A DNA stretch of 53,242 nucleotides from a virus. The position numbers were made by a program, and so were the translations under genes. The stretch covers positions 1-53,242 of the IMG/VR virus record IMGVR_UViG_3300017788_000033. One strand, written 5' to 3'. The notes under the pieces are model-generated. The model saw nothing but the letters and a program-made list of their open reading frames with translations, was not told the origin of the DNA and did not search any database. This document shows positions 1 to 19,300 of the stretch, piece by piece; positions within the stretch are counted from its first letter, which is position 1; every line of letters starts with the position of its first letter.

Positions 1-1
1 T

Positions 2-172
2 GCTCTGTGGCTGCAGAATGATTATGCTCTGTACAGCTTTGCTCGTCGCTATGATGATTACTCTAAGTTCGTAGCTGCCATTGGGTTTGGTTCTGAAACT
101 CCTGACGGTGTTTCCTTTGCATCTCCGAAGCTTGACTACAATGAGCTGAATGAAATGCTCCAAGATCTCTGA
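2..172 (+). CDS. C-terminal fragment of a small unknown phage protein
   Basis: This open frame runs from the window edge to a TGA at 170-172 and encodes the last 56 residues of a protein whose start lies outside the window. The visible part is rich in Tyr, Asp and Phe (for example YALYSFARRYDDYSKF) and ends in an acidic helix-like stretch, NELNEMLQDL. I see no catalytic motif, membrane segment or signal peptide. Codon use is more GC-rich than in the structural genes and resembles the next two small genes, so the three probably belong to a module separate from the late structural block. I do not recognise the family. Confidence 0.6.
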   Translation, partial: ALWLQNDYALYSFARRYDDYSKFVAAIGFGSETPDGVSFASPKLDYNELNEMLQDL

Positions 173-209
173 GTTTCGTTAACACCTTTTCTTCAAACTT
201 TTCCGACTT

Positions 210-497
210 ATGAACAACATTCACGACCTCAACGACAGCATCAAACTCTCCGAGCAGCTGGCCCTGGAGCACTATGAAAAGCTGAACGGTGTTGTGGATT
301 ATCGTCTTCCCGGAGTTTGCAATCATTACTTTGCATCTTATGATCTGCACGGTGATCGTGATGGTGAAATCTGCCTCACATGTAAAGTCTCTAAAACCGT
401 TAAAGGCCAAGTCCGTTATACTTGGCAAATCAACGGTAAGCGTATCGCAGAGAAGTATATTGTAACTCAATTTGTTGAACTTGGTGCCTTTCGGTAA
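210..497 (+). CDS. Hypothetical protein, 95 aa
   Basis: A 95-residue protein of unknown function. The N-terminal third (about 1-25) looks helical and acidic (NDSIKLSEQLALEHYEKL). The rest alternates in a beta-like way and contains two cysteines spaced CLTC at about residues 56-59, plus another near residue 37. Three cysteines and a few histidines could bind metal, but no standard zinc-finger spacing is complete. No clear Shine-Dalgarno sequence precedes the ATG, as is common in cyanobacterial and cyanophage genes. The first 15 bases closely match the start of the gene at 541. Base use is GC-richer than in the downstream late genes. Confidence 0.65.
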   Translation: MNNIHDLNDSIKLSEQLALEHYEKLNGVVDYRLPGVCNHYFASYDLHGDRDGEICLTCKVSKTVKGQVRYTWQINGKRIAEKYIVTQFVELGAFR

Positions 498-540
498 CTG
501 ATACTTAAACCCCTCAATCACACACTTCGCTAACAACATC

Positions 541-765
541 ATGACCAACATTGACATCTCCAAAGCAAGCAAACTGGATCTGCTGATTGCTGATACCCGT
601 GGAGAGATTAAGTATACTGTGCTCAAGCCTTCGCGTCGAGGTGTGAAAGCACTCACAGGTCAGCGAGCTTGGGCGAACGCTGCTCCTAAAGGGGCCTTCC
701 TGCATGGTGCTATCAGTGAGGCAGCTGCAGTGGAGAAAAACAACAAATGCTCTAAGGCTTGTTGA
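541..765 (+). CDS. Hypothetical basic protein, 74 aa
   Basis: A 74-residue, overall basic protein of unknown function. It begins MTNIDISKASKLDLLIADTR, has a Lys/Arg-rich centre (KPSRRGVKALTGQRAW) and ends in a Cys-containing tail (NNKCSKAC). It could be a small nucleic-acid or protein binder, but this is only inferred from charge. It follows the 95-aa gene by 43 bases on the same strand, has no obvious Shine-Dalgarno sequence, and its first 15 bases resemble those of that gene. It is the last gene before the structured non-coding spacer. Confidence 0.6.
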   Translation: MTNIDISKASKLDLLIADTRGEIKYTVLKPSRRGVKALTGQRAWANAAPKGAFLHGAISEAAAVEKNNKCSKAC

Positions 766-777
766 GGTTGATATAGC

Positions 778-812
778 GTCCCCTCTGAGGCTTATGAGCA
801 CTTGGAGGGGAC
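778..812 (+). other. 8-bp hairpin without U-tract
   Basis: GTCCCCTC (778-785) is perfectly complementary to GAGGGGAC (805-812), leaving a 19-base loop that carries one copy of the GCTTATGAGCA repeat. The hairpin lies 13 bases after the stop of the 74-aa gene but is followed by ACGAATAC, not Us. It may protect the 3' end of the upstream mRNA or be part of a structured RNA. Confidence 0.45.
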
Positions 813-866
813 ACGAATACACCTTGGACGAGCAGCAGTTCTCGTGTAGCTTATGAGCAGTTTGAG
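790..866 (+). repeat. Pair of 18-base direct repeats
   Basis: Copies lie at 790-807 and 849-866. Both start GCTTATGAGCA and end GAG, with 16 of 18 positions identical and start-to-start spacing of 59 bases. The first sits mostly in the loop of the 778-812 hairpin. Confidence 0.6.
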
Positions 867-897
867 CAGTTGTTTTGTGCGCGGTTTGTGTTAGCGC

Positions 898-913
898 GGG
901 GCGCGGTGGCCCC
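898..913 (+). other. GC-rich hairpin
   Basis: GGGGC (898-902) pairs with GCCCC (909-913) around a 6-base loop, inside a run of alternating GCGCGG sequence that stands out from the AT-rich phage background. It is followed by an A-rich run, so it is not a + strand intrinsic terminator. Confidence 0.35.
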
Positions 914-1002
914 CCTAAAAGAAAAAACGCTCACTACCCTAATCTATAACGACCCCAAAAAGCGCTCGAAAAGCCATAAGTATTCAAAAATTTTTTCGTG
1001 GC

Positions 1003-3609: not shown

Positions 3610-3762
3610 ATGGCAGTAAAAGCAAAAGGTGGATTAAATAAAAATACTGGTTATATTCCTGGAACTCCTAAAAAAAGTCGTCAAGGAATGGGAAATGGAA
3701 CTAAATATGCTGCAACTAGTCGTAATAAGGCTAGGAAACCATATCGGGGACAAGGAAAATGA
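3610..3762 (+). CDS. Very basic small protein, 50 aa
   Basis: A 50-residue protein rich in Lys, Arg and Gly, from MAVKAKGGLN to ARKPYRGQGK, with hardly any acidic residues. A good ribosome binding site (GAGGT at 3596-3600) precedes the ATG. The composition suggests a disordered nucleic-acid-binding or virion-packaged basic peptide. Similar Gly/Lys-rich micro-proteins occur before the baseplate genes of T4-like cyanophages as far as I recall, but I know of no assigned function. Its TGA overlaps the ATG of the next basic gene (ATGA), so the two are translationally coupled. Confidence 0.7.
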   Translation: MAVKAKGGLNKNTGYIPGTPKKSRQGMGNGTKYAATSRNKARKPYRGQGK

Positions 3763-4517: not shown

Positions 4518-4721
4518 ATGGAAGAATTAAATTTGCCACAAAGACCAAATACTTCAAAAAGTGATGATGCTATTAAAGGATCCGATGGAATTGGTATAAA
4601 ATATTTGTCTCCAGAGGAATTAAAACTTCTTGAAGCTGCAACACCTTTCTTACCTCCACAAATGAGAGCATTTCAAATGCAAGATATGGTGAGAAATCTT
4701 AAAAATAATAACAATAATTGA
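4518..4721 (+). CDS. Hypothetical protein, 67 aa
   Basis: A 67-residue protein whose ATG directly follows the TAA of the previous gene, indicating coupled translation. It has a disordered N-terminus, a central helical segment (LSPEELKLLEAATPFLPPQM) and an Asn-rich tail of about six consecutive Asn codons. The family is unknown. It is followed by a structured 59-base leader before the next gene. Confidence 0.6.
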   Translation: MEELNLPQRPNTSKSDDAIKGSDGIGIKYLSPEELKLLEAATPFLPPQMRAFQMQDMVRNLKNNNNN

Positions 4722-4726
4722 CATTT

Positions 4727-4776
4727 CGGGATAGCAACCCCGTAAAAAGTTCTGATTTAACGTTAAATCAGGAGCT
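4727..4776 (+). promoter_or_regulatory. Two hairpins, the second covering a ribosome binding site
   Basis: The leader of the 79-aa gene contains CGGG (4727-4730) pairing with CCCG (4739-4742). It then contains a perfect 20-base palindrome, CTGATTTAACGTTAAATCAG, at 4752-4771. As RNA, the palindrome forms an 8-bp stem with an ACGU tetraloop. It can extend below a bulged G4772 by pairing 4748-4751 with 4773-4776. The Shine-Dalgarno sequence AGGAG (4770-4774) lies entirely within this stem, so translation could be repressed until the hairpin opens. Confidence 0.55.
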
Positions 4777-4780
4777 AAAA

Positions 4781-5020
4781 ATGTCAAATTTACCCGTGGA
4801 TAGAGACAGAGAATACATGAAACAAATGTGGGGAACCACAAAATTAATTACGGATTACGACTTAGAACCATCAAAAAGGATGATTCAAGAGGTTATGTAT
4901 GATCATGCACCAATTCATGATCTAAAGAAACAAACAGAACTTCATGAGAAGATTCGTAATGATGAAGACTATGATGATTGGTCATATGGAACTGAACCAA
5001 CATATGGTAAAAAATGGTAA
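4781..5020 (+). CDS. Hypothetical charged protein, 79 aa
   Basis: A 79-residue, highly charged protein of unknown function (starts MSNLPVDRDREYMKQMWG, ends TEPTYGKKW). I chose the ATG at 4781 because AGGAG lies at 4770-4774 with correct spacing; a longer in-frame TTG start at 4718 would translate through the hairpin leader. The middle (RMIQEVMYDHAPIHDLKKQTELHEKIR) is predicted helical by its pattern. It is the last small gene before the late promoter of gene 25. A virion or assembly accessory is possible, but nothing specific supports it. Confidence 0.65.
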   Translation: MSNLPVDRDREYMKQMWGTTKLITDYDLEPSKRMIQEVMYDHAPIHDLKKQTELHEKIRNDEDYDDWSYGTEPTYGKKW

Positions 5021-5037
5021 AAATGTCTTATACATAT

Positions 5038-5045
5038 AATAAATA
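5038..5045 (+). promoter_or_regulatory. T4-like late promoter, AATAAATA
   Basis: AATAAATA followed by CCC lies 15 bases before the gene 25 ATG at 5061, and starts the baseplate transcription unit. Confidence 0.6.
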
Positions 5046-5060: not shown

Positions 5061-5459
5061 ATGACTAGGATTTCTCGCAAATTTAAGGATATAAGTCTCT
5101 CTTTTGTGAGAAATCCTGTGACTAATGATATATTATCTATTAATGATGCTGATGCAATTAAAAAATCAGTCATTAACTTAGTCAGAACTCGAAATGGTGA
5201 AAGATTTTTTAATTCATTTATTGGATCTCAAGTTGAAAATTCTATGTTTGAGTTGCAATCTCCAGAAATTGCATATTCGTTAGAATTGGAAATAAGAGCT
5301 TTGTTAAAAAATTTTGAAAGAAGAATTTCTTTATCTTCTGTACTTGTTTCTTATCTTGAAGATTCTAATGATTTTAATGTTAGAATTGCATACGACATAA
5401 CTGGACTTCCTGTTCCAACTCAAACTATAGATTTTATACTGCAACCAACTAGAGTCTAA
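5061..5459 (+). CDS. 25: Baseplate wedge subunit, gp25-like
   Basis: Homologue of T4 gp25, the small gp25/lysozyme-like wedge protein that joins the baseplate to the first tail-sheath ring. Length (132 aa) equals the T4 protein. The diagnostic order is visible: 'IKKSVINLVRTRNGERFF' (about 34-51; T4 'IKNSLLGIITTRKGSRPF'), then FIGSQVENSMFE, then the family's 'NFERRI' (about 88-93), matching the NYEPRI of T4 (EPR motif, here with Arg in place of Pro). The end, LQPTRV, corresponds to T4 LASSNRV. The start ATG fits the family start. Its TAA overlaps the gene 6 ATG (TAATG), so gp25 and gp6 are coupled. It acts in the assembling virion. Confidence 0.9.
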   Translation: MTRISRKFKDISLSFVRNPVTNDILSINDADAIKKSVINLVRTRNGERFFNSFIGSQVENSMFELQSPEIAYSLELEIRALLKNFERRISLSSVLVSYLEDSNDFNVRIAYDITGLPVPTQTIDFILQPTRV

Positions 5460-7333
5460 TGTCATTTAATCAATTTACAAATTTAGACTTCGGGGATCTC
5501 AGAACGCAGATCAAAGATTATTTGCGTGCAAATCAAAATTTTACTGATTTTGATTTTGAAGGATCTAATTTTTCAGTATTAATTGATCTATTAACATATA
5601 ACAGTTACATAACTGCATATAACTCGAATATGACAGTTAATGAAATGTTTTTAGAAAGTGCGACTTTGAGAGAAAATGTAGTTTCACTTGCTAGAAATAT
5701 TGGATATTTACCTAGATCAAGGAGATCTGCAATAGCAAATGTAAGTTTTACAGTTGATATGAGTCAAACTGATGCTAGAACTGTAAAATTATTAGCGGGT
5801 CAAGTTGCTCTTGGCGCAGTTTCAAATGGCAATTATATTTTTTCAATTCCAGAAGATATTACAACACCTGTTAATAGTGATGGAATCGCTATTTTTGATA
5901 ATTTACCAATTTATGAAGGGGTATTTTTAACTAGTACTTTTATTGTCGATGAATCTCAAACTAATCAGAGATTTATTTTACCAAACACTAATGTTGATAC
6001 TACTTCCATCAGAGTTAAAGTAACAGATCAAGTTACAGAAGTTTATTCGGCATATGATAATTTATTAGATGTGGGAAAAGAATCTAGAATTTTCTTAATT
6101 CAAGAAGTTGATGGTGCAAAATACGAAATTAGATTTGGTGATAATATTGTTGGAAAAAAACCAACTAATGGAAGCAGAGTAGAGGTGACATATATTGTTA
6201 CAAATGGATCTTCTGGCAATGGAGCTACCAACTTTACATTTTCTGGTAGATTGAAAGATAACAACTTATTTGATATTACTAATGGTATTTCTTTATTAAT
6301 TACACAATCTAAGTCTGAAAATGGAGATGAAATTGAGTCAGTAGATTCAATTAAATATTTTTCCCCAAAAGTTTATGCTTCTCAATATCGAGCTGTAACA
6401 TCAAATGATTACAAGTCTCTTATACCATACATTTATCCAAATGTGGAGTCTGTAAATGCTTATGGCGGAGATGAATTAGATCCACCGGAATATGGTAAAG
6501 TATTCATATCTATTAAACCAAGAAATGGAACGTTTTTGTCTGAGATTACAAAACAAACAATATTAAGCACCATAAAAAAATACTCAATAGCTGGTATCAG
6601 ACCCGAAATAATAGATCTTTCATATCTTTATATTGAATTGGATACCTCTGTTTACTATAATGTAAACCGATTGAGTAATCCACAAATAGCAAAAACAAAA
6701 GTAGTTGATACTTTGACATCTTATTCTAACTCAAAAGACGTTAACAGTTTTGGTGGTAGATTTAAATATAGTAAAATTGTGGGATTAATTGATAATTGCG
6801 ATAAATCAATAACATCTAATATTACAAAAGTTAAAATGAGAAGGGATTTAAATCCAGAAATAAACACTTTTGCAACTTATGAACTTTGCTTTGGAAATCA
6901 AATACATACTAAAGATGGAGGATATTCAATAAAATCTACTGGATTTTTAATTGATGGAATATCTGATGTTTTATACATGGCAGATTCTCCATCAACTTCA
7001 AATAAAACAACTGGAAATATATTTTTCTTTAAATTAGAAAATAATTTACCAGTAATTGTTAAAAATAATGCAGGAACTGTTGATTATATTAGAGGTGAAA
7101 TTAGATTAGATGTTGTTAATATAACATCATCTGTTTTAAATAATGGTTTTATAGAGGTTCAAGCCATTCCAGAATCAAATGATGTTATAGGTCTTCAGGA
7201 TTTATATCTACAATTGGATGTTAAAAATTCTGTGGTAAATATTATAGAAGATGTTGTCAGTTCCGGAGAAAATTCCTCTGCCACACAATATGTAACTACA
7301 TCTAGCTACTTAAACGGAAGGTATACAAGATAA
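5459..7333 (+). CDS. 6: Baseplate wedge subunit, gp6-like (Baseplate_J-like)
   Basis: Homologue of T4 gp6, which forms the inner ring of the baseplate as dimers with gp7 and gp25. The N-terminus has the typical 'NFTDFDFEGSNFSVLIDLL.YNSYITAYNSNMTVNEMFL.SATLRENVVSLA' region (about 27-80), shared with Baseplate_J-type proteins. Length, 624 aa, is close to T4 gp6 (about 660). The middle (about 185-260) contains a beta-rich domain ending in FGDNIVGKKPTNG, and the C-terminal half carries the dimerisation part typical of gp6 (for example AVTSNDYKSLIPYIYP at about 315-330). It overlaps gene 25 by one base and is followed two bases later by gene 7. Confidence 0.9.
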   Translation: MSFNQFTNLDFGDLRTQIKDYLRANQNFTDFDFEGSNFSVLIDLLTYNSYITAYNSNMTVNEMFLESATLRENVVSLARNIGYLPRSRRSAIANVSFTVDMSQTDARTVKLLAGQVALGAVSNGNYIFSIPEDITTPVNSDGIAIFDNLPIYEGVFLTSTFIVDESQTNQRFILPNTNVDTTSIRVKVTDQVTEVYSAYDNLLDVGKESRIFLIQEVDGAKYEIRFGDNIVGKKPTNGSRVEVTYIVTNGSSGNGATNFTFSGRLKDNNLFDITNGISLLITQSKSENGDEIESVDSIKYFSPKVYASQYRAVTSNDYKSLIPYIYPNVESVNAYGGDELDPPEYGKVFISIKPRNGTFLSEITKQTILSTIKKYSIAGIRPEIIDLSYLYIELDTSVYYNVNRLSNPQIAKTKVVDTLTSYSNSKDVNSFGGRFKYSKIVGLIDNCDKSITSNITKVKMRRDLNPEINTFATYELCFGNQIHTKDGGYSIKSTGFLIDGISDVLYMADSPSTSNKTTGNIFFFKLENNLPVIVKNNAGTVDYIRGEIRLDVVNITSSVLNNGFIEVQAIPESNDVIGLQDLYLQLDVKNSVVNIIEDVVSSGENSSATQYVTTSSYLNGRYTR

Positions 7334-7334
7334 A

Positions 7335-10300
7335 ATGTCAGAAATTAAAAGAGTAAAAATTGGTTCTATTATAGAATCACAAATTCCAGAATTTTTATCA
7401 GTAGAATCTCCTCTTTTTGTTGAGTTTCTAAAACAGTACTATCAATCATTAGAACATCAGTCTGGTTCCATTGATATTATTTCTAATATAACTCAGTATA
7501 AAAATTCAAAGAAATTTAATAATATTGATTTAATAGAACAAACTACTCTTACTTCTGATATTTTAAGTTTTGACACAACAATAAATGTTGTTTCAACAAA
7601 AGGTTGGCCCGATACTTATGGATTACTGAAGATAAATGATGAAATAATTACATATCTTTCCAAAACAGATACTACTTTTGAAAATTGTATTAGAGGATTT
7701 AGTGGTATCGATAATTTAGAATCTTCAAATAATCCACAATTTTTAAATTTTTCTTCAACAGAAGCATCAGAGCATTCTAATTTAACTGTAGTTAAAAATT
7801 TAAGTAATTTATTTTTAATTAAATTTTTTGAACGATTTAAATTTGAGTTTTTACCTGGATTTGAGTCAAGGGATTTTTATGAAAATATATCAGTAGAAAA
7901 TATAGCTTATAGAATTAAAGACCTTTATTCATCTAAAGGAACTGATCAATCATATAAACTTTTATTTAAAATTCTTTATGGATCTGATATTGAAATAATA
8001 AAACCACAAGAATATACTTTATCTCCTTCTTCCAACTCTTATTTTATAACAAAAAATATTTTAGTAGAAAAAATTTCTGGCGGAAATCCAATAGAAATTA
8101 AAGGTAACTTTTTATTTCAAAATATAACCGGAATTGGAACAGTAAGTGCTTCAATTTTTAATGTTGAATATAGACCTGTAGCTAATAAAGATTTTTATGA
8201 AATTTCTTTAGATAGTACTTCATTTAGTGGAAATTTTAGAGTTTCTGGAAAAACAAGAGTATTGGAAGATGTTCAAATTGGTAGTAATAATATTTTAGTT
8301 GATTCGACCGTAGGATTTGCTAATTCTGGAACTATTTTAGTAAAACCTGAAAATTCGGATTTTATTGAAATCAATTATACTGGAAAAACTATTAATCAAT
8401 TTACTGGAGTTACTAATGTAACCAAACCTTTAAATTTTGGACTTGACTTAATAGAAGAAAATTTTGCTTTTAGCTATGTTGGAGTGGGAAATACTTCAAA
8501 AGTTGAATTTAGAGTAGTTAACGTAATTGATAATATAGATTTTTCAAAAACATCAAATCTCAGAATCGGTGATAATATTTCTTTATCTGGGTTTGGTAGA
8601 GATTTTTATGATAGTTATCAATTTAACAACTGGATTTATAATTTACCAACCAATCATAATATTAAAAATATAAATCAAGTTGACTCCACAAAATACAGAA
8701 TTATTTTATTTGATAAAGTATATTTTTATCAAAATGAAAGGGTTTTTCTTATTGATTCTTTAGGTAACTCTATAGAAGCAGATATTATTTCTGTAGAATA
8801 TTCAACATCAGATTTAATTGAAAAATACAGTGATAGAATATTAGTTCAAATTTTAAACCCAGGATCTTTTAATATTCTAAATTCCATAGGGGTAAGAAAA
8901 AAAATATATAAGTCTAATCACGCAAGTAATTATTTTCAAAATTTAGAGACCATTCCAACAAGTGTTCAAAACACTTATATTGATTCTACTGAGGAATATT
9001 TTTATGTAACATCTTCTGGATTACCAAATTATACTATTTTTTCTACAGACAATAAAAAAACTGTATCTACTACTGTAGGAACTTCTGTAACTGATACATT
9101 TAATGTTAATAATCATAATTTTATTAGCGGAGAGTTAATTTTTTATCAACCAGAAACATCTTCCGGTATATTGACTGGATTATATTATGTTACAAGATTA
9201 GATAATAATAGATTAAAATTATCATTTAGTAAATCTGATATTTTTTCAAAAAAATATATTCAAACCACATCTCAAGTTGTCAACGATTCTCTGTATAAAT
9301 TTGGATATCAAAACAAAAATTTAAAACATCAAAAATTATTAAAAAAATTCTATTTTAATAAACCCAGAACATCATTTGATGATTTAAATTTAAGGACAAC
9401 TTTTAATAGAGAGATTGGATTATTATCAAATGGCGTTGAAATATTATCTCCGACGTTATTTGATGAAAATATTTACTATGGAAATATAACATCGATAGAT
9501 GTTACTGATTCTGGTAAAGATTATGATGTAATTGATACTCCTTCTTTAGATGTAAATGATGACTTTGGTACAGGATTAAAAGCTCATTTAAATATTTCTG
9601 GAAGTGTAAAAGAGATAAAAATATTAAATGCTGGATATGGATATCAAGAAAAACCAAAAATAACAATAATTGGTGGAAATGGTACTGGGTGTGTTTTAGA
9701 ATCTAATTTTGTTAAATCTCAAGTTTCTTCCGGATTTAAAGCTGATTTGAATGTCAGCACAATTGATAATACAATACAGTTTTTAAATTCAATACCTTTT
9801 GAAGATGGTGAAGAAATAATTTATGATTCTAACAAAAATTCTAATGTACCAGGTATTATAAATGGTTCCTCATACTTTGTAGGAATTTTAACAGATAATA
9901 AAATTAAACTTTTTAACAATAAAACTGATGCTCTTCAAAAAACAAATGAAATTGATATTGTTGGAGTTTCTTCAGGGTTTCATTTTATAACTACTCTAAA
10001 AAATAAAAATACTTTTACTGAAATTTATGTTAAAAACCCTGGCCAGGGATACTCAAATAGAAAAGTAAAAGTTCCATCAATACTTTCTGTAGACAGTGCA
10101 ACTTCTGGTATTAATACTTTCGATTCATATGTGTTTGCAAAAAATCATGGATTTAATAATTCTGAACTTGTGAAATATGAATATTCAGATACACCGATAA
10201 GCGGTCTTTCCACATCAATATTATATTATGTTAAAGTAGTAGATGTAAATAAATTTAGACTTTATGAAGCGGGGATTGGTGCATCTTTAACTAATGAAAA

Positions 10301-13300
10301 TTTAGTTAAAAATAAATTTGTAAAATTTAATTCACTTGGTATTGGAACTCATACTATTGGATATCCACCAATTGAAGTAAAAGTGGAATCTAAGTCAGCT
10401 ATGGGATCTACAACTATAATAAACTCAGAACTAAATCCTATTGTTTTGGGATCAATTCAAGATGTTTATATAGAAGATGGTGGTATTGGTTATGGATGTA
10501 CAGACATTGCTAATTATCATAGAAGACCCAATGTTTCAATTTCGAGTATAACATCTCAAGCAATTTTAAAACCCATTATTATTGATGGATCAATTGTAGA
10601 TGTACAAATTATTAGTAGAGGACAAGGATTTAGAAAAAATTCAGAAATACTGGTTTATGGAGAAGGAAAGTATGCACAAATAGAACCAATCGTTGAAGAG
10701 GGTAAATTATCTGCCGTTAATATTGTTTTTGGTGGAGTTGGATATTTACCTTCAAATACTACTTTAATTCTTAATAATAGAGGACAAAATGCTAAATTTT
10801 TAGCAAATGTACGTGAATGGAAAATTAATCAAGTAGTAAAAAGTAAGAATATTATCTCCAATCAAGATGATGGTATATTGTATCCAAGTAAAAATCCACA
10901 ATTAGAGCTTCAACTCATTAATTTTTATATACCAAAAAAATTAAGATATCAGTTATCAGATAATTTTACGGATTCGAATAAAGAAACTAATGAAACATTA
11001 AATCATTCTCCTATTTTGGGTTATGCATATGATGGAAATCCAATTTATGGTCCTTATGGATATGATACCACTACTGGTGGATCTATAAGGAAAATGAATT
11101 CTGGATATGTTTTGAATGTGAATCAAATATCTGGATTAAGACCTCCATCTTTTGAAAATGGATTTTTTGTTAATGATTATGAATATAATGGTTCGGGCGA
11201 TTTGGATATTCATAATGGAAGATTTTGCATAACTCCAGAATTTCCTAATGGAACTTATGCATATTTTTATGCAATAGATGTCAATTCTTCAAATGAATCG
11301 ATTCCTAGGTATCCTTATATTATTGGTCCATATTTTTATAACAAACCAATAACTGAAAATTTATTACCATCATATAATCAAGATATTGATATTTTCACTC
11401 CCAATTTGACCAGAAATATTGGCCCTTATTATTTAAATCGTAGCAATTCTTCTTATGATCTAATTGATAAGGTATCTGAAGAATATAAACAAGAGTTTTA
11501 TGTAAATTCTATAAATTCTGGTAAAATTGAAAGTGTATCTATATTTTCTCCTGGAGATAATTATAAAATAGATGATCCTGTAGAAATAGATGTAACTGGC
11601 ACAGAAGGAATACAACCAAATATTGTTGTCAGTGAATTAAATGGTAGAGAAATTGAATCTTTCTTCTTATCGGAAGAATTAATATCTAATGCAGAATTTT
11701 TTATAAGAAATCCAGATACAATAGTAAAAACTAGTTCTCCTCATGGAATTAAGAATAATCAATCAATTTTAATAAGCGGTATATCAACTATAACTGCATC
11801 TAAATTTGAAGGGGTAAAAAATGTTGAAGTTTTAGAAAAGGAATCCCAATTATTAAATGATATTGATACAACATCTGTTACTGGAGTTTCTACATTCATA
11901 ACTTTAAAAGATACTAACGGATTTAAAGTCAACGATTTTATAGGAATAGGTTCTGAAATTTTATTAATTACTGATATTGATGTCAAAAGATCTGGATTTT
12001 ATGTAAATAGACTACAAAATACTGGAGTGCATACTGCTGGAGTTGATAATGTTATTTTATTACCAAGGGAATTTAAAATACCAACCGGAGATATTACAGA
12101 TTTAACCTTTGAGAATTATACTACATTTTTTGATCCTAGATTTTCTGTAGGTGTAGGAACAACAGGATCAATTCGCACAGTTGTCGGATTTGGAACTACA
12201 TCTATTGAGAATAGATTTATTCCACCCAGAAACATATATTTACCATCACATAAATTTTATACTGGACAACCTCTTCTCTATAATTCTGGATCTGGATTTG
12301 CCGGCACTTCTTTGTATGTTAATAATGTTGGTTCTGGAGTTTCTTTCTCACTAGAAGATAATCAAATTGTTTATGCGGTAAATCTTGGCAAGGATTATAT
12401 TGGATTATCCACTCTTGGATTTACCAGCTTTACTGGAATAGGAACAAATATAAATTCTTTGGAATTTTGGGATCAAACAAAATCCTATGGCGTAATTGGA
12501 GCAGCTCACTCATTAACTACTTTAAATCCAAAAGTTACTGGAACTTTGGAAAAAACATTAGGTATAATAACTACAACTTCAAATCATCAATTAAATGTGA
12601 ATGATTTGATAACATTAAATTTAACTACAAATTATAATGAAATTGTTAAAGTTATTTTTGATCCAGTAAATAGAAAAGTTTTGATGAGAGAAATTTCTTT
12701 TTCTGATAGTGATGTCTCATTATCAGAAAGTTCTATAAATTTTTCTTCATATAATGGAAATATTGAAACCGGAGATAAAGTTGTTTATGTCTCCAGTTCT
12801 CCAATTAGTGGACTCAATCATTATGGTACGTATTATGTTTTAAAAACAGATTTTGATTCTATAAAATTATGTGAGTATGAAAGTGATATAGATGAATCTA
12901 ATTTTATTAATTTTTCTTCCGTTGGAGGACTAACACATAAATTATATTTTGTTAATCCACAAATTTCATGCATAAGAACTACAAAGATAGAATTTGACTT
13001 GTCAGATTCCAGCTTAACAAATTTAGATTTACAATTTTATTTTGATCCAAATTTTGTAGAAAAGATTAATGAAAGAACGGGATTTTTTGTTGAAAGACAG
13101 GGGGTTCCTGGTAATTCTGGATCTAAAGTTATTTTGGATCTTTCCGGTCAGTTTTTTCCAATATATTATAATCTGTTTTCTAAAGGATCTTCAGAAGAAA
13201 GTAAGAAAGAAATATCTTCAGATGTTAATGTAAAATCTAATAATAAAATTTCAATCATAAATCATCAGTTTAATAATAAGTTTAACATTATAGAATCTAC

Positions 13301-16300
13301 AGATAAGACATTTTCATTTTTTAATACCAAAAAATTAACTTTTAGTGAAAAACAAATTTTAAGTCAACCACAAACTACTTTTTCTTATAAAACTACATCT
13401 AAAACAGCTTTAGGACCTATATCAAAATTAAAAATTAATTTTCCTGGTAGGGGATATAAAAAATTACCTAAAGTTAGAGGAATTAAAAGTGATCTTGGTG
13501 TAAATGCTGTAATTAAATTAATATCTCCAAATATAGGAAAAGTAGAAACTTTTACTAGAGTTAAAGATGGATTTGATTACCCAACAGATCCTACACTTTC
13601 TCCATCTTTAAGTGTACCCACTGTTATTGGTATAAAAGATATAAGAACTATTGATTATATTGAAATAATTTCTGGAGGAAGAAGATATAATAGCTCTCCA
13701 AAATTAATTATAAAAAATAATATTAATAATGACATTGAACTTAATGCAAATATTTTAGGTGGTTCTATAACATCTGTAGATATTATTAAAAATTCTACAT
13801 CATTATCCAGTCCTTTAGAAATAGTTCCAATTTATAATTCAAATGGATATGAAATTGATTCAATTTCTGTAGTTGGAAATTTAATAACATTAGAGTTGTT
13901 AAATTCTCCAGTTACCAATCCATTCATATCTTCTGGTTTTGGTAAAACTGATTATGAATATCCTTTTAAGATAGGAGATAAGATTTTTATTGAAAACTGT
14001 AGGTTAACCAGTTCTACATTAGACCAAGCTAATTTTAATTCTGAATCTTATAATTACTTATTCTTTGATGTTGTTGGAGTAAATACGACAAACAATACAG
14101 TTACATATGATATGTCCGGTATTTCTACCGGATCTTTTGGAACATATAGTGATCAATTTAATTTGGGAGTGGTTATTAATAAAAATGATATGCCTGAATT
14201 TAATATGATACTGAAAGATGATGTTAATTATCTTTCGAATGAAAAAGTGTCTTCTTTAACATTTGTTGGAACCGTTATGGAGGGTGGTTGGGATAATAAT
14301 TTAAATCAAATGAGATTAAAAAATATTTTTGGGGAAATAAATGTTGGAGATAAAATTTTTGGTGAAACTTCTAAAATTAGGGGTACGGTTGAATATTTTG
14401 ATACTTTTAATCTATATTCAACTTTAGGAGTGTCTAGAGATAAAACATCTTCCATAGATCTATCTTCCGGTATTTGTAATGATTATTTACAAAGAATTTC
14501 CGATAATTTTTACTACCAAAAATTTTCTTATTCCATTAAAGGAAATATTCCCTACAATATTTGGAGAGAATCTGTAAGATCTACTGTTCATCCATCTGGA
14601 TTTAAAGAATTTTCTGACTTAGAAATTTTTACTAAACCAACTTTAAATGAAGTTAATGCGGGAATTGCAAGATCCATTAACATGAAACCAAAAGTAGAAA
14701 CAACAAGTTCTATTACATTTGTTAATATAGATCAAATATCCAAATTTAACACAAAGAAAAATTTTGCTAGAGTTTATGAGGAAGAATTAAATCCCGATGG
14801 TTCAATTCAGAATGTATTTTTTGATGAAGGAGTAGATTTAAGTCCATTTATTGTAAATAGAACTAATAAAGTTATCGAAATTGACGATATAAGTAGTCAA
14901 TTTAATGGAACTGCAGATCAATATTTACAAGGTAGATTCTCTGATGCTTCAGATTTATTGGATTATAATAAAGAATTTATTCAAGAAGAGGTAGTTGGAT
15001 TTATTACCGCTACTTACCCCGGAATTACTACCAATCCCGATTGGGATAGAACTATTTGCAAGAGAGATGTAGGATATATTGTTGATGCAATTTCACATGA
15101 TTTAAAATATAGTTCTAACAATAAATCAATTGAAGCTGGACTTGCGTATTGGTCTGGAGTCGGAACAAGTTATGTTGCTGGAGAGTCTATAGAAACTATA
15201 GCCGGATTTAATTATATTGTTGATTTGTCGAAATATATTATCAATAATGTTGGAGTTAAAACATCATACCAACTTGCAAATGCAATTAATATTTCAACAG
15301 CAGTTTATAATAATGTAACTGGAATTACCACAATTACTACTTCAAGTCCTCATGGGCTATCTACAACTACAGTAGATTATGTTGTTTTAAAAAATTTAGT
15401 TTTTTCTTGCGATTCTGGTGGTGGTATAAACACTGCAATTTTCCCAAATTTAGGTGCAGGTCCTGATGGAAATGGTGTACTATCTCCTAAGGGATTTGTT
15501 TACCAAGTGGAGGTTATTGATTCTGTCAGATTTAAAGTTAATCCAGGTCCATCAACTATAACTCATACTTACGATAGTGGTGGTACTATTCAAAGAGCAT
15601 TTATATCTACTTCTCAATATATTGATTCAACAATTTTACCGGACGTTAATTGTAGTTTAGAATATAGTGAAAATTGTTGTGCTGATGTTTGGACATCAAT
15701 AGGTAATTATATTGGAATAATAACCACAATAATTGGAATTGGGACTACTGCAAAGCCCAATACAATAACATATCCATCTTTGGCTAGAGGTGGATCAATT
15801 GTGGGGTTATCTACATTTAAGTTAAAAAATAAAGGAACTTCTCTTTTTAAACATGAGTTTTCCGGTTCTAGTGTTGACATTATCAATGATAAATTTATAA
15901 TTCCCAATCATAATTTTCAATCGGGTCAAGAACTAATATATTCATATTCTGGTGGAAGTCCTATAGGTATTGCTACAACTTCTTATGTAACTGGACAAGT
16001 TGACACTCTTTTAAATGTTCACGAATTTGATGGAACTGCAATTTTTGAAAATGGATATAATGTTGCTATAACTACTGATATTTCTGGAACTGTTCCAACA
16101 GGACCTACTGGATTTATTAATTACACTCAAGTAATAGGATTAAACACTACAGGATTTGGTACTGATGCTACATTTAATGTATTCATTTCGTATAGTGGCG
16201 GAGGAGTCCCTCTCTCCACTTCAGTAGTTTTAACCTATGGCGGCAGCGGCTATTATGTTGGAGAACAAGTTTCTATATCTGGAACTTATTTTGGTGGAAC

Positions 16301-19300
16301 TAGTCCCACTAATGATATAAGTTTTGTCGTTTCCAAAACTGCACCAACAGCAATACAATCAGAAGCTAATCAAAGTTACTTAGCTGTCCCTTCTATAGAT
16401 TTGAGTGGAGCTACCTTTGACGTTGCAAGAGATTCTTCTGGAGAAATTAATTATGTTAAAATATTAAATGGAGGATCCGGTTATGATACTAATTCTATCA
16501 TTTCAATAGCTGGAACCTATATTGGAGGAGCTAGCCCCAAAGATAATTTATCATTTACCCCACTAGAACTTGGTACTAAATCTTTACCAACTTCAGTATT
16601 TGTATATAAATTAAATGATAATGAATTTAAACTCTCTGGGTTATCCACTAGTGTATTTTTAAATTTAACTGATGTAGGTACATCTACTCATTATCTTTCA
16701 TATAAGGAACCAAATGCTAGTGTAATTATTACTATAGATGGAATAATACAAAAAGCTGTAACTAGAAAATCATTACATGTTTCTTTTGCTTCTAGTGTAT
16801 CTTCAGCTTCAACAACAATTATAGACATTTCTTCGGGTATTTCATCTTTATCAGTTAGTGACATAATTAATATCGGAGATGAGTATATATCTGTTAGAAA
16901 TATAGGTATTACTTCAAGTAATCAAATAGAAGTCATAAGAGGTTATTTTGGAACGGTAGCGACTTCACATACTGTTGGAGCTTCTGGAACGGTCTTAAAT
17001 GGTGATTTTAACATCGTTGGCGATATAATATATTTCGATTCGGCTCCATATGGAAAAATTGGTCCTGTAGGACTAGAGACGGGTTCCATATTTGGAGGTA
17101 GAGCTTTTAGTAGAAGATTTGATCCGAATTCTCCACAAGATAAAAATATATTACTTGATGATATATCTTTATCATTTACCGGTATAGCAGCAACAGAATT
17201 TACAATAAAGGTAAAAGATCAAACTACAAATACCATTTTTAATAGTGTTAATAGTAACACTGAAATTAATAATAATCCAATAGTTTTAATTAATAATGTA
17301 TTTCAAGATCCAACTAATGACTATACTGTTGATGGTAGTGGTTCAAATGTTCTTAGATTTTTATCTGGTACACCAAGTTCCGGAAAAATAACAAAGGTTG
17401 CTATATCAAGTAGTTATGGTTATATTCCTAGAATTGGAGCTGCGGCTACAATAATAGTTTCTACTGGTGGAACTATTACTGATGTAATAGTTACTGGAGG
17501 TGGATCTGGATATAGATCCGCTCCCGTTGTTAGTATTGCATCAACAATTGGTATTGGCGCAAGTGTTGTAGCAACAGTAAGCGTTGCAGGTACAATATCA
17601 GGATTTACAATTATAAATCCCGGAATTGGATATACATCAACATCTCTTCCAGAAGTAGTAATAGGTATACCAACTGGATATAGTAATCTAAGTTTAGGTT
17701 ATACTGGTGGAACTTCAGGTGTTGGAGGAAACGCTAAACTTACTGTTGAAGTTGGAATGGGATCGAGTATTTTATCATATAAATTTGATCAACCTGGTAT
17801 AGCATATAAAGTAGGAGACAAACTTACGCCAATAGGTATTCCAACTAATACCACGCTTAGATATGATTCCCTAAGTATTTCTAATGTTCAATATAACAAT
17901 TTGACTGGAATTACTACAATTACTACAACTTCTACTCATAATATAAATGAAAATGATTATGTAATTTTAACAGGAATAGCATTTACATGCGGATACGATG
18001 AAGTTGGAATTCAAACATTCTCATATGATAACGCAACTGGAATTTGTACAGTTGTTACTTATTCTCCACATGGATTATTGAGAACTGATGTCCCAAATAA
18101 TCAAACTAGTGATGAAGTATTTTTATATAATTTACCGTTTAATTGTCCATCATATACAACAAATACTGCAGTTAACATTAGTAATGTTGTTTACAATCAT
18201 ATAGTGGGTATCGCTACAATTACAACATCTTCTGATCATGGTGCTGTTGCTGGAAAACAAGTAAAACTAGCGGGAATTGCATTCTCTTGTTCTGCACATA
18301 GTGCAACTGGAATTGCAACTTATAATATTACCAATTTTGTCTATACTAATTCTACCGGTATAACAACGATTACACTTGACGCAAATCATGAATTAATACC
18401 AGGGGAATATGTTCAACTTTCTGATATTATTCTTTCTTGTCCATCAGAAGCTATCGGATATTCAACCACCAAGTTCCCATACTCAGCTGGTATAGGAACC
18501 TTGGGCAATTCTTATCCGAATAGTAGTCCAAATACCCTTGGGGGAACTTTCAATGTGTTCCGAGTTCTTGTAGGAACCTCTGGCACAACAATTGTATTCT
18601 ATGCAGGAATTTCTACTGTTGCACATACTTATAGTTCTGGTGGCACAGCAACAGTGGGTATTACATCTACAATATTCCCGTATCCTGGATCTAGTCCTAC
18701 TACTGTAAGTGGAACATTTGATGTATTTGAAGTTAACTCAGTTTTAAGTAATACACAATTCACAATTATAGCCGGAGTTTCTAGTATTGCACATACTTAT
18801 GTTTCTGGTGGGACAGCTCAATCAGGTGTAACAACTACAATATTCCCGGATGGCACAAGCACTTATGGAAAAGTATTCCCAGTTCTTACTTCTATAAGTT
18901 CCACAAGTTTTACCATGAATGCAGGTATCTCTACGATTCCTCATGTGTTTGAAGGTTGGCCAGAGATTGGAATTAACACTTTCTCTTATTATGAAATTAC
19001 TGGATTATCTACAGTAACGACATCAGTTGATCATCAATTTCAAGTTGGAGATAAAATTACTCTTGCGGGACTTGCATTTACATGTGATTCTGCATATGTA
19101 GGACTAACAACTACAATATTCCCAGATGGAACATCCCAGTATGGGTATACATTTACGGTAACTGCTGTAAATAGTTCCACCGAGTTTGAGTTTCTTGCAG
19201 GAATATCTACTATTATTCATTATTATACTGGTGGTGGATATACTAAGAAAGTTCCTACTGCACAAAGAGTTCTCAGATATACAGATGATAGTACTGATAG

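Follow-up and report, generated by a model that had tools for sequence, protein, structure and literature searches.

The virus record IMGVR_UViG_3300017788_000033, which was analyzed over its whole length of 53,242 bases and is referred to here as the window, harbors an RNA element at positions 4727-4775 that is composed of two hairpins and located directly upstream of a small open reading frame (ORF). The hairpin that had been noted earlier in this region is real and conserved across many cyanophages, and it forms the 3' half of an element that is larger than first noted. A translational switch is the most likely function of this element, and the switch probably turns production of the small protein on and off. 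In its specific form, namely that the element is a cis-acting RNA of T4-like cyanophages controlling translation of the adjacent small ORF via a switch between a hairpin and a pseudoknot, we give this reading an even chance of being right. More tentatively, the element might represent a new class of RNA switch, in which the loop of hairpin 1 mimics the Shine-Dalgarno (SD) strand and an H-type pseudoknot, stabilized by a ligand or a protein of the infected cyanobacterium, opens the small ORF in front of the baseplate genes to translation. Control of translation as such, centered on a hairpin that hides the SD, is considerably more probable than this full switch. If true, this would be a regulatory RNA class that is common in T4-like cyanophages and without a family in Rfam 15, and it would provide a first point of entry to the timing of translation in cyanophages as well as to a conserved small gene beside the baseplate wedge genes. 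Since the element comprises less than 60 bases and is present in one strong copy per carrier genome, it is directly testable, and natural variants with a moved SD, with a missing SD, or lacking the element like S-PM2 offer a ready comparison set.

Genomic Context of the Element

The 79-aa ORF downstream of the element (4781-5020, plus strand) is of the phrog_1414 type, with a profile match (E = 8.9e-06) that covers its first 27 residues only. It is followed on the same strand by the genes for the baseplate wedge protein gp25 (5061-5459) and for a gp6-like baseplate wedge protein (5459-7333), and preceded by a further small ORF (4518-4721) with its stop codon at 4719-4721. The same gene order, a small hypothetical gene and then two baseplate wedge genes, is present in S-SRM01, the best-matching annotated isolate, and therefore the window virus can be regarded as a T4-like cyanophage. 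Adjacent to the wedge genes, positions 7335-22007 form a single ORF of 4,890 residues, at which place S-SRM01 has a large gene named "baseplate wedge initiator." On the other side of the element, a basic 50-aa ORF of phrog_516 is located at 3610-3762, and the first 1,000 bases of the window (1-1000), which have a G+C content of 44-49% compared to about 23-42% across the following 7 kb and contain ORFs on both strands, may have been imported or may evolve in a different manner.

Architecture of the RNA Element

From 5' to 3', all on the plus strand, the element contains hairpin 1, an A-rich linker, the invariant strand AAAAGTTCT and hairpin 2 with the SD in its 3' arm. Hairpin 1 (4727-4742), which the earlier note had recognized as a smaller hairpin just upstream, has a CGGG/CCCG stem and an 8-base loop (4731-4738, ATAGCAAC), and carries the core GATAG-N-AACC. 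Within this loop the strand AG(C)AAC (4733-4738), with a variable and bulged C4735, is the proposed pseudoknot partner of 4749-4753. The A-rich linker UAAAAA (4743-4748) would then be loop 3 of the pseudoknot, and GUUCU (4749-4753), which we refer to as the switch strand, is the 5' arm of hairpin 2 and at the same time the putative pseudoknot strand. Hairpin 2 (4749-4775) hides the SD, AGGAG at 4770-4774, six bases from the ATG at 4781, and its upper part (4754-4769) is predicted to be able to survive in the pseudoknot state. The details that had been claimed for this hairpin are indeed present in the sequence: 4752-4771 is the perfect 20-base palindrome CTGATTTAACGTTAAATCAG, A4748-G4749-T4750-T4751 can pair with A4773-G4774-C4775-T4776, including one wobble (T4750-G4774) and a bulged G4772, and the AGGAG lies inside. 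An intrinsic terminator, which had already been considered not to fit, was rejected, as CTAAAA follows the stem and the sequence 3' of it, CTAAAAATG, is without a U-tract.

RNA folding of 4700-4800, suggested earlier as a check, gave -22.2 kcal/mol with z = -3.39, better than 199 of 200 dinucleotide shuffles, with one being equal or better. The palindrome by itself is weak evidence: the window contains three perfect inverted repeats with arms of at least 10 and loops of at most 8 bases, and 12 shuffles of the window contain between none and three. The hairpin is far above chance because its pairing is conserved with base changes, as outlined below, and not because of the length of the palindrome. 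That it is a chance hairpin resulting from plain local folding without any role would agree with this near-chance length, but is contradicted by the wide conservation with compensatory changes and by the z-score, and can practically be dismissed.

The best fold of the window region also forms an outer stem of 9 base pairs, in which 4718-4726 (TTGACATTT) pairs with 4779-4787. The 3' arm holds the ATG (4781-4783), so that this stem would cover the start codon, and like the larger conserved element it goes beyond what had been noted earlier. However, of 40 distinct rows of the CGGG type 25 have a complementary run of at least 7 bases for the outer stem, compared to 5 of the 89 other rows. The outer stem was therefore rejected as a general feature of the element and is confined to one lineage.

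Conservation and Covariation of the Hairpins

The alignment A1 comprises 79 distinct leaders, whereby the empty row L047, which is too near the contig start, was omitted. Among these leaders 94.2% of the cells are paired and six pairs show changes on both sides. The covariation score is 0.247 compared to 0.089 in shuffles, none of which reaches it, and to at most 0.058 in slid controls; sliding the partner by only one base lets the pairing fall to 57-64%. One stem position of hairpin 1 is occupied by GC in 36, CG in 31, AU in 8 and UA in 4 leaders, another one by GC in 42, AU in 36 and CG in 1, and in hairpin 2 an A-U pair is swapped to U-A in 37 of the 79 leaders. RNAalifold independently recovers the identical two hairpins. 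The SD hairpin is well supported, and since the pairing outlasts base changes, the element is best explained by translational control. Thereby the proposal of the earlier note, for which missing conservation of the pairing in relatives had been named as a counterargument, holds with respect to the SD hairpin, which is kept through base changes. It has to be modified in three respects, as this hairpin makes up just one half of the element, temperature is not favored as the trigger, and the SD is not hidden in every relative.

A larger set consists of 161 distinct leaders, which remained from 166 distinct stretches after exclusion of five with ATT or ATA stems that read as gp25 coding DNA. The GATAG-N-AACC core is found across these 161 leaders, and in all rows of alignment A3 the linker has four A's directly 5' of GTT. 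In the clade of L219, L221, and L222 the CTG/CAG is replaced by another strand, and the AGGAG is buried all the same. The unpaired letters (those of GATAG-N-AACC and of the invariant strand) are as invariant as the paired ones. This is typical for a protein site, and a protein operator would be an alternative to the switch: hairpin 1 together with the A-rich linker would be bound by a protein of phage or host origin, possibly by the product of the small ORF, and this binding would keep the ribosome site locked, with no pseudoknot switch involved. T4 provides precedents, as gp43 and gp32 bind operators 5' of their own genes, a hairpin and a pseudoknot, respectively, according to a review of T4 (PMC3014915), and a single strong copy before the same ORF family would suit such feedback. 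However, no RNA-binding fold was recognized in the small protein, neither by profile searches nor in an AlphaFold2 model of the 79-aa protein, which is of low confidence (mean pLDDT 65.6), and the C-terminal half of the protein varies among phages. Moreover, L434, L479, and L491 retain the element with a different start of the ORF product (by eye), which argues that the RNA and the protein start evolve separately. Altogether we consider a protein operator unlikely. As a side observation from alignment A2, the small ORF has retained the short start P-DR...GT..LITD, and its C-terminal half is either of two unrelated-looking types, ..DYDDWxYGTEPxYG or ..CGGxGGFDDYVERWH.

Occurrence of the Element in Cyanophages

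All 80 loci fetched with the 79-aa protein, the best 80 of at least 598 relatives among 600 stretches, contain the element, and so do all 78 further loci fetched with the window gp25. The exact GATAG-N-AACC core is present in 76 of the latter, and the other two (L152, L153) are variants. Three other gp25 queries retrieved the element in 5 of 6, 67 of 80, and, with the gp25 of Syn30, 10 of 80 loci. The sole miss in the first of these sets was cut by the contig end, six of the 13 misses in the second had less than 320 bases upstream, and in the third the element is absent from 70 of the 80 relatives. In 33 of these 70 loci, which were inspected, the gene 5' of gp25 is mostly different and resembles the ORF at 3610-3762 of the window (L230-L303). 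Searching by the DNA motif alone, with 80 loci kept among the matches listed, the same small-ORF family was found by a script to follow in 59; of the remaining 21, visual inspection assigned 19 to the same ORF family, including three whose start differs. The motif-only loci L460 and L500 have no stem and were rejected as chance matches.

Using blastn with the leader, the element was detected in further Synechococcus and Prochlorococcus phages. In the isolate regions inspected it is located 5' of the small ORF upstream of gp25 with one exception, S-SCSM1, where the element is followed by a small ORF lacking annotation and then by other genes including plastocyanin, but not by gp25. With the core model R2, a single strong copy was detected in 13 of the 20 complete records scanned, whereby R1 and R2 were both built from element-bearing rows and matches to those rows are thus not independent; a second strong copy was not found within the carrier genomes. 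Directly after the element stands phrog_1414 in 12 of the 13 element-bearing records, and in the 13th, ACG-2014f, an ORF with a similar start that is assigned to another phrog. From eight records chosen without the motif (P-SSM2, S-PM2, Syn9, P-SSM4, Syn19, P-HM1, S-SM1, and S-SSM7) only Syn9 carries the element, which is therefore widespread in the group without being present in all members. In S-PM2 the small ORF is present without the element, and its SD is open. None of nine weaker matches that were inspected (L177, L180, L182, L404, L409, L410, L411, L412, and L419) shows the element.

Sequestration of the SD and the Putative Pseudoknot

Of the 161 distinct leaders, 149 have the SD mostly paired, four have it partly paired and one has it open, and in seven none was recognized. 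S-CREM1, S-SCSM1, and S-SZBM1 have the SD in the loop region and the hairpin partner 3' of it, and L156, L248, L425, and L479 have kept hairpin 2 though there is no SD inside. For the window, the predicted fraction unpaired per SD base is 0.08-0.32 in the hairpin state vs. 0.97-0.99 when GUUCU is blocked, with the upper stem of hairpin 2 predicted to remain and AGGAG to be free. Similarly, blocking of GUUCU raises the median predicted SD exposure in the 154 leaders with an SD from 0.21 to 0.91, with an increase of at least 0.4 in 129 and a smaller one in 25 of them. The predicted exposure is almost the same at 15°C (0.201) and at 50°C (0.219), with no melting in the living range. An RNA thermometer was therefore rejected, and temperature, one of the triggers that had been suggested earlier, is unlikely to act as such according to these predictions.

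The strand GUUCU follows the A-rich linker in the 161 distinct leaders, its counterpart in the L153/L219 clade being GUUUCU or a similar sequence. It is complementary to both the SD strand AG(G)AGC and the hairpin-1 loop AG(N)AAC, a shared complementarity newly recognized in this analysis. It can pair identically, bulge included, with AGNAAC of the loop and with AGGAGC of the SD strand. As the loop thus imitates the SD strand including the bulged base, the two can be assumed to compete for GUUCU. Complementarity between the loop and GUUCU was found in 161 of 161 leaders (5/5 pairs in 157, 6/6 in three, and 5/6 in one), a count that is partly built in, since the search pattern already demands most of these letters. 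After shuffling of the loop and tail letters, equal complementarity occurred in 3.9-6.3% of the trials. The pairs of the pseudoknot helix are nearly invariant and none has changes on both sides, and therefore covariation is unable to prove the pseudoknot, the partner of which is a testable proposal. At the bulged position of the loop any of C, A, G, or T can occur, the Syn30 type has no base there, and leaders of the L219 clade carry an additional T opposite an A, resulting in six unbroken pairs between loop and strand. These three observations lean toward a pseudoknot. Freeing GUUCU costs a median of 7.0 kcal/mol, whereas pairing of the two strands alone yields only -0.7 to -4.1 kcal/mol. The cost exceeds the gain, and the pseudoknot could therefore not prevail at equilibrium without help.

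In the off state of the proposed switch, GUUCU together with G4754 would pair with CAGGAGC, and AGGAG would be buried in hairpin 2. In the on state, GUUCU would instead pair with AG(N)AAC of the hairpin-1 loop across the A-rich linker and thereby form an H-type pseudoknot, in which the upper part of hairpin 2 would remain and exactly AGGAGC would be released. Since precisely the SD would thereby become accessible, the element resembles a switch with two states. GUUCU emerges from the polymerase ahead of the SD strand, which would give the pseudoknot the first chance to form. It might be stabilized by a protein, by a small molecule, or by the circumstance that no ribosome terminates on the upstream ORF.

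The influence of the ribosome can also be conceived as the control mechanism itself, which had been suggested earlier as well. Here, a ribosome finishing the upstream ORF would cover hairpin 1, or the outer stem in the lineage of the window, and alter the partner of GUUCU, so that read-through transcripts and the element's own transcripts would differ in translation. Among 151 leaders, 96 have an open frame of at least 45 codons that ends 4-10 bases 5' of the hairpin-1 stem, which is in line with such a coupling, as are the stop codon of the window at 4719-4721 and the ribosome-site hairpins that distinguish early from late transcripts in T4 as reviewed for that phage (PMC3014915). However, such spacing is to be expected anyway in compact phage genomes, the frame extends 8 bases into hairpin 1 in 23 of the 151 leaders, and the promoter arrangement varies among groups. 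We therefore regard ribosome-coupled control as distinctly unlikely.

Putative Transcript Start

A TAAATA resembling a late promoter stands 5' of the hairpin-1 stem in 90 of the distinct leaders, separated from the stem by 3-8 and typically 5 or 6 bases. Late transcription of T4 starts six bases beyond the promoter. Applying this rule to the spacing of TAAATA, the messenger would begin at the base of hairpin 1. The late promoters of T4 are given as TATAAATA in the review cited above (PMC3014915). With such a promoter setting the 5' end, the element could shield the RNA from decay, and the SD hairpin would be secondary. This is very unlikely, because all leaders of the CGGG-stem group (45 of 45), the window included, keep the element without a TAAATA promoter before hairpin 1, and because the invariant GUUCU and its pairing with the SD would be left unexplained. 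The window has a TAAATA at 5040, 5' of gp25. A late-transcript hairpin of the T4 gene e type was also rejected, as TAAATA either precedes both hairpins or is missing, whereby start sites are deduced from promoter-like sequence.

Comparison to Known RNA Elements

No Rfam 15 family reaches its gathering score anywhere in the window, and no description of the element was found in the open-licence literature. Leader structures as such are well established in T4, which uses them on genes 32, 43, e, and 25 (PMC3014915). The gene 32 operator is a leader pseudoknot for translational control in a T4-like phage (PMC3014915), to which the proposed pseudoknot of the element would be similar. The T4 knot, however, is located 67 bases upstream and acts together with a stretch rich in A+U and free of structure. 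In the element, by contrast, one and the same strand would form the knot and pair with the SD, and it precedes an ORF of the phrog_1414 type and gp25 instead of gene 32. With the split ribosome-binding site of T4 gene 25 the element shares a hairpin at the ribosome-binding site near this baseplate gene. In T4 that hairpin sits between a distant SD and the AUG and aids translation, an arrangement which, as the review puts it, is absent from distant T4-like phages (PMC3014915). In contrast, the SD of the element lies within the hairpin with an SD-AUG spacing of six, and a different ORF follows. Small stem, A-rich loop 3 and SD output are reminiscent of preQ1-I and other H-type pseudoknot riboswitches (PMC11625349). 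Unlike these, the proposed knot would free the SD rather than bury it, and no metabolic gene is controlled; moreover, no Rfam riboswitch was found at gathering score in the window. Downstream-peptide RNAs likewise stand before short ORFs. Together with wcaG, manA, PhotoRC-II, and glnA RNAs they belong to the structured leaders of cyanophages (PMC2864571, PMC9964418), and none of them matches the window. As far as the account of its Rfam search goes, the S-CREM1 paper reports abiF, wcaG, manA, and glnA only, and none at 95072, the position of the element in that phage (PMC9964418).

The only Rfam match with any resemblance is GP20-b RNA (RF03003), with 17.6 bits and E = 0.34, and weak GP20-b matches in relatives include the element. 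Both have in common a short hairpin, a loop of the type ..GCAAC and an A-rich run followed by G in front of a phage gene. Identity with GP20-b was rejected, as 17.6 bits are below the gathering score of 36.2 and none of 12 element-bearing phage records exceeds this cut-off. A true GP20-b (48.5 bits) is present in L217 at 1251-1312 on the minus strand, and differs from the element in having no GUUCU and in preceding a different gene. Its hairpin and A-rich tail look able to form a short GGC:GCC pseudoknot, and thus GP20-b may share the plan of the element.
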